This document shows positions 4,895 to 7,011 of a DNA stretch of 64,000 nt, piece by piece; position 1 is the stretch's first letter, and every line of letters begins with the position of its first letter. The stretch comes from Wenjunlia vitaminophila DSM 41686. GTDB lineage: Bacteria > Actinomycetota > Actinomycetes > Streptomycetales > Streptomycetaceae. The DNA is taken from positions 62,001 to 126,000 of the forward strand of contig NZ_KB904652.1 of assembly GCF_000380165.1 (NCBI RefSeq), written 5' to 3'. The notes below the pieces were generated by a model, which saw nothing but the letters and a program-made list of their open reading frames with translations, had not been told where the DNA came from and made no database searches. The position numbers and the translations under genes are program-made.

Positions 4895-6814
4895 TCACCG
4901 GGGCACCACCACCGGGGCCAGCAGCCGGGAGACGATGCCCGGGCCGTCCAGCGTCAGCACCGACTCGGGGTGGAACTGCACCCCGGCGAAGCCCGGGCCG
5001 CGCAGGGCCACCACGTCACCGGTGACCGGGTCACGGCTGAGCTCGACCTCGCGCAGGGCCAGCCGGTCGGCCGCGGCGGCGGTGCACCGCGCGGTGAAGG
5101 TGCTGTAGAAGCCCACCGTCTCCGGGACGCCGAACAGGTCCACCGTCTCCTGCGCGCCCTGGAACGGCACCGCCTTGCGCACCAGGGGCAGACCCAGCTC
5201 CAGGGCGAGGAGCTCGTGACCGAGGCACACCCCGAGCACCCCGTGCGGATGTCCTCCCAACAGGTCCCTGGTGAGGCCGCGCAGCAGCCGCATCTTCGGG
5301 TCGTCCGGGTCCCGGGGGTCACCGGGTCCCGGGCCGAGCACCACCGGGCCCGGGTGCGCCAGGGCCGCCGCGACCACACCCGGTTCGGCGTACTGCCGGA
5401 CGGTCACCGTCAGGCCCACCGCGCGCAGCAGGTGCGCCAGCATCGCGGTGAAGGTGTCCTCCCCGTCCACCACCAGGGCGTGTCCGCCGAGCGGGCCGGG
5501 CGTCCTCCCGTGGTGCATCCGCAGCCAGAACGGCGCCAGCGTCGCCCGGCGTGCGGCCAGCGCCGCCACCACCCGCCGGTCGTCGGCGAACGACACGGCG
5601 GCCCCGTCCGGGGCCGGCCGCCCCTCGCGGACCCCCAGCGCGGCCAGCACCCCCGCCGCCTTGGCGTGGGTCTCGGCCACCTCCGCGCGGGGCTCGGAGT
5701 GCCGGACCAGGGTGGCGCCCACCGGGACCCGCAGGGTGCCGTCCGGGTCGATGTCCGCGGTGCGGATCAGGATCGGCGAGTCCAGCGTCTGCCCGCCGCC
5801 GGCGTCCCGGCCGAGCAGCGCCAGCGCCCCCGCGTAGTAGCCGCGTCCGCCCTCCTCGTGGCGTTCGATCACCCGGCAGGCGTTCTGCACCGGGGACCCG
5901 GTGACCGTCGCGGCGAACATCGTCGCGCGCAAAACCTCCCGCACGTCGGCGCTGCTGCGCCCCCGCAGCTCGTACTCGGTGTGCGCCAGGTGCGCCATCT
6001 CCTTCAGTCGCGGCCCGACCACCACTCCGCCCAGGTCGCCCACCGCGCACATCATCTTCAGTTCCTCGTCGACGACCATGGTCAGCTCCTCGACCTCCTT
6101 GCTGTCGTGGAGGAACGACAGCAGGCCGGCCAGGTCGGGGCCCTGCGGGGGGTAGCGGTAGGTCCCGCTGATCGGGTTCATGGTCACCGTCCCGCCGGCC
6201 ATCCGCACGTGCACCTCGGGGCTCGCCCCGACCAGGGTCCGCTGCGGGGTGTGCACCAGGTAGGTCCAGTAGGCGCCGCGCTCCCCGACCAGCAGGCGGC
6301 GGAACAGCGAAAGGGCGGTCGCCGCGTCGAAGCCGGGCAGCTCGCCGGTGAACGTCCGACGGATGACGAAGTTGGCCCCCTCACCCCGGCCGATCTCCTC
6401 GGTGACCACGCGCTCCACGATCCGGGCGTAGGCGTCGTCGGACACGTCGAACACCCCGTCGCGCACCGCGACCGGCAGGTCGGGCAGCGCCCCCAGGGCC
6501 TGCGCGCAGTCGATCTCGTGGACCTCGGTGGGGCGCAGCACCAGCAGTGGCGTGCCGTCGTCCCGGACCTGGAAGCCGCGCTCGCGGATCTGCCGGAACG
6601 GGACCAGCGCCAGGGCGTCGATCGCCGGTCCCCCGGTGGGTGCCCCGGAGGGCAGCGGGATCCGCGCCAGGCGGTCCACGGTCTCGACGGGGCCGGTCAG
6701 CACCTCCACGGTGTCGCCGTCCTCCCGCCCGGGGCCCCGGCGGCGCAACAGGGCGAACGGGGGAGCGGCGGGGTCCAGCAGCCGACGGATCACGTTCCGG
6801 GCGGTGGTGTCCAC
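4895..6814 (-). CDS. trpEG: Anthranilate synthase, fused TrpE-TrpG
   Basis: Converts chorismate and glutamine to anthranilate, the first step to tryptophan. The N-terminal ~430 residues are the chorismate-binding domain (MNPISGTYRYPP, DEELKMMCAVGDLGG, LAHTEYELRGRSS, FAATVTGSPVQNACRVIERHE). The C-terminal ~190 residues are a class I glutamine amidotransferase with nucleophile GVCLGHE and the His-Glu pair in FHPESV. PhzE and some Streptomyces anthranilate synthases share this fused layout, so sequence alone does not exclude an ADIC synthase. The Trp-rich leader upstream argues for tryptophan synthesis. Start chosen is GTG 6814 (VDTTARNVIRR) with AGAAGGACC upstream; the frame is open further 5' but runs through the attenuator. 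Confidence 0.88.
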   Translation of the reverse strand: MDTTARNVIRRLLDPAAPPFALLRRRGPGREDGDTVEVLTGPVETVDRLARIPLPSGAPTGGPAIDALALVPFRQIRERGFQVRDDGTPLLVLRPTEVHEIDCAQALGALPDLPVAVRDGVFDVSDDAYARIVERVVTEEIGRGEGANFVIRRTFTGELPGFDAATALSLFRRLLVGERGAYWTYLVHTPQRTLVGASPEVHVRMAGGTVTMNPISGTYRYPPQGPDLAGLLSFLHDSKEVEELTMVVDEELKMMCAVGDLGGVVVGPRLKEMAHLAHTEYELRGRSSADVREVLRATMFAATVTGSPVQNACRVIERHEEGGRGYYAGALALLGRDAGGGQTLDSPILIRTADIDPDGTLRVPVGATLVRHSEPRAEVAETHAKAAGVLAALGVREGRPAPDGAAVSFADDRRVVAALAARRATLAPFWLRMHHGRTPGPLGGHALVVDGEDTFTAMLAHLLRAVGLTVTVRQYAEPGVVAAALAHPGPVVLGPGPGDPRDPDDPKMRLLRGLTRDLLGGHPHGVLGVCLGHELLALELGLPLVRKAVPFQGAQETVDLFGVPETVGFYSTFTARCTAAAADRLALREVELSRDPVTGDVVALRGPGFAGVQFHPESVLTLDGPGIVSRLLAPVVVPR

Positions 6815-6893
6815 GGGGGTGGTCCTTCTGAGGGCGTCGTCCACGGGTCGGTTCCTTCCGAATGACCTCAGGAACGGAACTCCGGAAACGCCG

Positions 6894-6917
6894 AAGGCCG
6901 CCCCTGGGGGCGGCCTT
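6894..6917 (-). terminator. trp attenuator hairpin
   Basis: On the minus strand, 11-bp arms AAGGCCGCCCC and GGGGCGGCCTT surround a 2-base loop, followed shortly by a GTTT stretch. It lies between the Trp-rich leader peptide (stop at 6940) and trpEG (start 6814), the position of an attenuator. The 3' run of U is weak, as is common in high-GC genomes. Confidence 0.7.
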
Positions 6918-6939
6918 GGTGTGCGCTTGCGGTGTGTGC

Positions 6940-7011
6940 CTAGGCGCGAGTGAGCAGGGAGGCCGCCTCGGGGAGGGGCCACCACCAGGAGCTGGTCGTC
7001 AGCGCGCGCAT
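6940..7011 (-). CDS. trpL: trp operon leader peptide with three consecutive Trp codons
   Basis: A 23-residue reading frame, [20 protein letters not shown] plus TRA, with three adjacent TGG codons (6987-6979) and a TAG stop. It sits 126 bases upstream of trpEG, with a terminator hairpin between them. This is the layout of ribosome-mediated transcription attenuation: when charged tRNA-Trp is scarce the ribosome stalls at WWW and the terminator is prevented. An attenuator-controlled anthranilate synthase gene is known in Streptomyces venezuelae. TAGGGT lies exactly seven bases upstream of the ATG, so the leader peptide itself is probably translated from a leaderless mRNA. Confidence 0.88.

Follow-up and report, generated by a model that had tools for sequence, protein, structure and literature searches.

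A short open reading frame with a run of Trp codons lies ahead of a fused anthranilate synthase gene, trpEG, in Wenjunlia vitaminophila DSM 41686, and a −10-like box stands a few nucleotides before its start codon. The locus raises the question of whether tryptophan attenuation can be read through a leader peptide that is itself leaderless and, if so, whether this combination is peculiar to one strain. We addressed this question in a window of 64,000 nucleotides (contig NZ_KB904652.1, positions 62,001 to 126,000) and in the upstream regions of related genes. The reading that we favor, and consider very probable, is a Streptomycetaceae-type trp attenuator of the fused gene, with the leader read from a leaderless start.

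All elements of the putative attenuator are on the minus strand. The −10 box TAGGGT, read from the sequence, occupies positions 7024-7019 and is separated by 7 nt from the A of the ATG (7011-7009) that opens trpL, a leader of 23 codons plus a TAG stop (7011-6940; stop at 6942-6940), in which three tandem TGG codons at positions 9 to 11 (6987-6979) form the sensor. The 23-residue leader, its three tandem Trp codons, and the TAGGGT at 7 nt had been described in a first-pass annotation and are confirmed here. The box-to-start distance falls within the 4 to 9 nt by which leaderless mRNAs are recognized, and the leader has no Shine-Dalgarno (SD) sequence. On the strength of the −10 spacing and by analogy with TrpL1 of Streptomyces lividans (see below), the transcript is predicted to start at, or within about one base of, A7011. 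A generic promoter scan found no sigma-70 consensus pair in the window, because the −35 region is weak. Just upstream of the promoter, 43 to 50 bases of region 7031-7080 are matched at 3 other places in the genome (L002-L004) with 80% to 82% identity; these matches may be GC-rich chance.

Tandem Trp codons and an antiterminator/terminator switch are features that the window shares with the Rfam family Trp_leader (RF00513) and with Escherichia coli trpL; the E. coli leader is translated with an SD sequence. A covariance-model search with E up to 1 gave no match to RF00513 in the window. Two sub-threshold hits, to CC2171 (20.8 bits, cut-off 75, opposite strand) and ryfA (13.7 bits, cut-off 80), were taken as chance. 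A search of the strain's own genome for further Trp leaders of like geometry yielded 13 pattern matches versus 15 in the control, that is, no excess beyond the known site.

The strong hairpin followed by trpEG, likewise claimed by the first-pass annotation, is present as well. It spans 6917-6894 (AAGGCCGCCC-CCAG-GGGCGGCCTT; 10 pairs, 4-nt loop, GC-rich), and the fusion follows from GTG 6814, or possibly from GTG 6844. The poly-U element is weak: the 12-nt tail, CGGCGTTTCCGG, has only three T, which is why a simple scan called no U-tract terminator in the window. Counted from the first base of the final Trp codon, GGCGGCC (6967-6961), which lies within the leader frame, begins 14 nt downstream; it can pair with GGCCGCC (6915-6909) of the terminator 5′ arm, which itself pairs with the 3′ arm at 6902-6896, so that the three segments form a GGCGGCC/GGCCGCC/GGCGGCC triple. 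The duplex between leader segment and terminator arm has an energy of −18.3 kcal/mol, compared with −12.7 ± 2.2 in shuffles. RNA folding had been proposed as a check for a competing antiterminator, and its outcome is divided: the duplex energies and the 7-mer triple support the pairing, whereas minimum-energy folds that mimicked stalling on W9, W10, or W11, by masking the leader as far as the ribosome, returned the terminator and lacked the antiterminator. The antiterminator must therefore win kinetically, by forming first, as it does in the classical attenuation model.

Under the favored model, transcription would begin at or beside the leader ATG, and 70S ribosomes would initiate in leaderless fashion. 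With ample Trp-tRNA, the ribosome would reach the stop codon at 6942-6940 and cover GGCGGCC (6967-6961), allowing the terminator (6917-6894) to form. When Trp-tRNA is scarce, the ribosome would stall on codons 9 to 11 with its front edge just short of GGCGGCC; the free segment would then capture GGCCGCC (6915-6909), the terminator would be blocked, and trpEG would be transcribed.

To assess how far this arrangement extends, we compared 175 upstream regions. Eighty belong to named loci, the best among 588 confirmed relatives of the window protein; two genome searches supplied 53 more, and 40 are one-kilobase stretches. The window and its own copy, the latter counted apart from the genome searches, complete the set. 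Strand was set by tblastn, except that 34 of the one-kilobase stretches, with only about 100 coding bases each, gave no tblastn match and kept the strand listed for them. A leader frame with two or three tandem Trp codons (WW/WWW) was found in 160 of the 175 regions, the window included. Ten of these were identical to another leader over −30 to +120 and were dropped, leaving 150 distinct leaders for counts; a single-Trp leader, L066, stands outside both totals.

In every one of the 160 leaders, TAnnnT precedes the start by 6 or 7 nt (ATG at 7 nt, 116; ATG at 6 nt, 23; GTG at 7 nt, 15; GTG at 6 nt, 6), and the same is true of all 150 distinct starts, the commonest form being TAGGGT. Starts were picked among in-frame ATG and GTG codons with TAnnnT at 5 to 9 nt, which entails some selection, yet none fell at 5, 8, or 9 nt. 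Elsewhere in these upstream regions, 112 of 113,188 positions and 3 of 2,339 ATG or GTG codons have the motif at this distance. An SD-like motif 4 to 18 nt upstream of the leader start was found in none of the 150 distinct leaders, and the −35 element is mostly weak, 124 of the 150 agreeing with TTGACA at no more than three of its six bases. Most distinct leaders (137) have three tandem Trp codons and the other 13 have two; codon 9 is the first Trp in 92. Among the eight loci outside the window's family (L097-L104, families f5-f8), seven show a WW leader with the box at 6 or 7 nt, L100 being the exception; the leader of L099, which lacks a terminator-like stem, is doubtful. The combination of a predicted leaderless start with Trp attenuation is near-invariant in this gene family.

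The candidate switch is widespread too. A 7-mer of the terminator 5′ arm that pairs fully with both the 3′ arm and a segment after the Trp codons is present in 145 of the 150 distinct leaders, and in 135 of these, the window among them, the triple is GGCGGCC/GGCCGCC/GGCGGCC; shuffled segments gave a leader-arm partner in 92 of 2,900 trials (3.2%). The exceptions, in which no perfect 7-mer triple was found, are L041, L098, L099, L104, and L110, the last from a relative of the same genus. The energy of the leader-arm duplex relative to shuffles gave z < −1 in 143 of 149 leaders and < −2 in 88 (median −2.2). Measured from where the last Trp codon begins, the antiterminator arm starts at 14 nt in 127 of the 145 leaders by the 7-mer test and at 10 to 13 nt by the duplex test (5th to 95th percentile), which is where a stalled ribosome would end. 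The pairing segments hardly vary and compensatory changes are rare. Judged from these comparisons, the predicted leader, its spacing, and the candidate pairing are far beyond chance, and both anatomy and conservation give good support to the earlier proposal of ribosome-mediated Trp attenuation with leaderless initiation on the leader.

The first-pass annotation had also considered the coupling of leaderless initiation with attenuation unusual, a view that is not supported, given its near-invariance in the family and the S. lividans precedent. Eight leader peptides, two of them Trp-dependent, are reported for S. lividans TK24; TrpL1, upstream of trpE SLIV_27120, is described there as leaderless by RNA-seq of 5′ ends, with three Trp codons and two hairpins (PMC8079986). 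The same source gives leaderless transcripts as 17% of primary transcription start sites (TSSs) and the −10 to TSS distance as 4 to 9, with a mean of 6.3 (PMC8079986). As reported, TrpL1 resembles the window in its WWW leader, its hairpins, the monocistronic trpE-type gene downstream, and a TSS at the start codon, mapped in S. lividans and predicted here; it differs in the leader, MFAHSTRNWWWTAHPAAH, of 18 amino acids as opposed to 23 codons in the window, and in a reported uridine-enriched stretch that is weak in the window (PMC8079986). TrpL1 has exactly the same letters as the L076 leader, and the protein encoded downstream in L076 shares 69% identity with the window protein.

Classical attenuators of Streptomyces trp genes were predicted in 2005 by Seliverstov, with a conserved gGCC-rGCy-GGCC pattern (PMC1262725). 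The putative attenuator in the window fits this type in its leader and its pairing: two to three tandem Trp codons are characteristic of the leader upstream of the anthranilate synthase gene, and a GGCC-type triple joins the leader arm, the terminator 5′ arm, and the terminator 3′ arm. The type also has a GC-rich terminator with a poly-U run behind it, of which the window shows the stem and three T in 12 nt. An experimental study of the Streptomyces venezuelae trp attenuator, which likewise precedes an anthranilate synthase gene, is cited in the same article (Lin et al. 1998, in PMC1262725). Leaderless or nearly leaderless sensor frames are also on record in other actinobacteria. In Corynebacterium glutamicum ilvBNC (Morbach 2000), where attenuation is ribosome-mediated, as proposed here, and branched-chain amino acids are sensed instead, a single nucleotide is reported to separate the TSS from the start of the leader, and mutants in the start codon or the sensor codons to lose expression or regulation (PMC11857589). 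Mycobacterial polycysteine leaderless short ORFs (Canestrari 2020), in which the elongation rate controls downstream genes, are similar in having a leaderless sensor frame and differ in sensing cysteine and acting on downstream translation (PMC9031893). For Corynebacterium diphtheriae, the ilvB leader is reported as leaderless, while the trp leader had no TSS (PMC5784534). A leaderless start combined with attenuation is thus already in print, Streptomyces included, and the window is a further clear example.

Three other explanations deserve consideration. Attenuation could be real and leader translation nevertheless start conventionally, on a longer mRNA that has a 5′ UTR and a TSS upstream of 7024. 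The empty sigma-70 scan speaks for this reading, yet the TAnnnT box at 6 to 7 nt in 160/160 WW leaders, the lack of SD-like motifs in all 150 distinct ones, and the reported leaderless state of S. lividans TrpL1 (PMC8079986) argue against it, and we regard it as very unlikely. Less easily set aside, if still unlikely, is a hairpin that acts on trpEG translation or through Rho and not as an intrinsic terminator, with ribosome stalling still in control. The weak U-tract speaks for it, both in the window and in the relatives (of the 149 distinct leaders that have a stem, 81 show ≤3 T in the tail); against it, the hairpin is located well upstream of the trpEG SD (6827-6823), which the 3′ arm does not cover, and the stem is long, GC-rich, and conserved among the leaders. 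The third explanation is a chance ORF beside an unrelated hairpin, both being common in GC-rich DNA; since the 150 distinct leaders conserve position, Trp run, spacing, and pairing alike, its probability is negligible. The leaderless, ribosome-mediated attenuator accordingly remains our preferred reading.

The gene under this predicted control, trpEG (6814-4895, minus), encodes a fused protein with Chorismate_bind (PF00425) and GATase (PF00117) domains. Its start is assigned to GTG 6814, with an alternative in-frame GTG 6844 30 nt away and an SD-like GAAGGA before each. The doubled GTG/SD (6850-6812, minus) may reflect a short duplication at the site of initiation; the same-genus relative L110 has one SD-start as opposed to two in the window. 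The classical TrpE model TIGR00564 scores weakly on the window protein (98.5 bits, cut-off 517.7), and among solved structures its best relative, 3r74 (584 bits over residues 5-631; runner-up 74 bits), is one we take to be PhzE. The Trp leader, together with the annotation in S. lividans and S. venezuelae, makes the fused protein a probable anthranilate synthase. The same genome holds a separate classical TrpE, L187, which scores above the cut-off (566.5 bits) and in whose fetched upstream sequence no Trp leader ORF was found. With the classical enzyme lacking a Trp leader and the window protein closest to 3r74, the attenuator would control the fused, PhzE-like isozyme.

A phosphofructokinase gene lies behind trpEG in the window, and within the fetched flanks phosphofructokinase was present in 86 of 118 loci and DAHP synthase in 72 of 118. 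SLIV_27120 is presumably the orthologue and would share these neighbours, as SCO2117 with DAHP synthase on one side and phosphofructokinase on the other. The class II DAHP synthase of the window is divergent (7165-8511, plus; TIGR01358, 769 bits), and a −10-like TAACCT (7152-7157) ends 7 nt before its GTG at 7165. All 72 relatives with this gene in the fetched flank have TAnnnT 6 to 7 nt before its GTG start, suggesting that the synthase is probably leaderless too. trpL-trpEG and the DAHP synthase gene thus diverge from about 150 bp with two predicted leaderless starts.

Fifteen of the 175 regions fell outside the WW set (L066, L100, L105-L109, and L160-L167). L066, from Actinacidiphila yanglinensis, has the leader VTAMISRTTQQTCWRTASPAAR at TAGGGT-N7-GTG with one Trp codon: Cys-Trp-Arg replaces the Trp-Trp-Trp of its relatives, while promoter, antiterminator segment, and terminator are retained, and the sensor may be decaying. 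The leader was absent from the other 14, all of them divergent copies (48% to 53% identity by tblastn for L100 and L105-L109; 54% to 56% for L160-L167). An isochorismatase-like motif is encoded upstream in 9 of the 14 and was not seen in the other 5; Pfam confirmed PF00857 for the one fragment submitted. This suggests that the 9 isochorismatase-adjacent copies are PhzE-like members of phenazine-type pairs, presumably PhzD-PhzE. The promoter and leader of L040, labelled Microtetraspora glauca, are nearly identical to those of Streptomyces narbonensis L024; mislabelling or contamination of the L040 assembly is probable.

The 6- to 7-nt spacing is kept in every orthologue examined, whereas the leaders drift in length, in the position of the Trp codons, and in peptide sequence. 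For this reason the leaderless start might, though this is unlikely, itself be part of the sensor: 70S loading on the first transcribed base may be required for synchronizing ribosome and polymerase on a leader that offers only about 90 nt ahead of the terminator. If so, trpEG would answer to conditions that alter leaderless initiation as well as to tryptophan. At the level of the whole gene family, and not of one strain, a predicted leaderless start is coupled with Trp attenuation, which recommends this family for finding out whether attenuation requires leaderless initiation.
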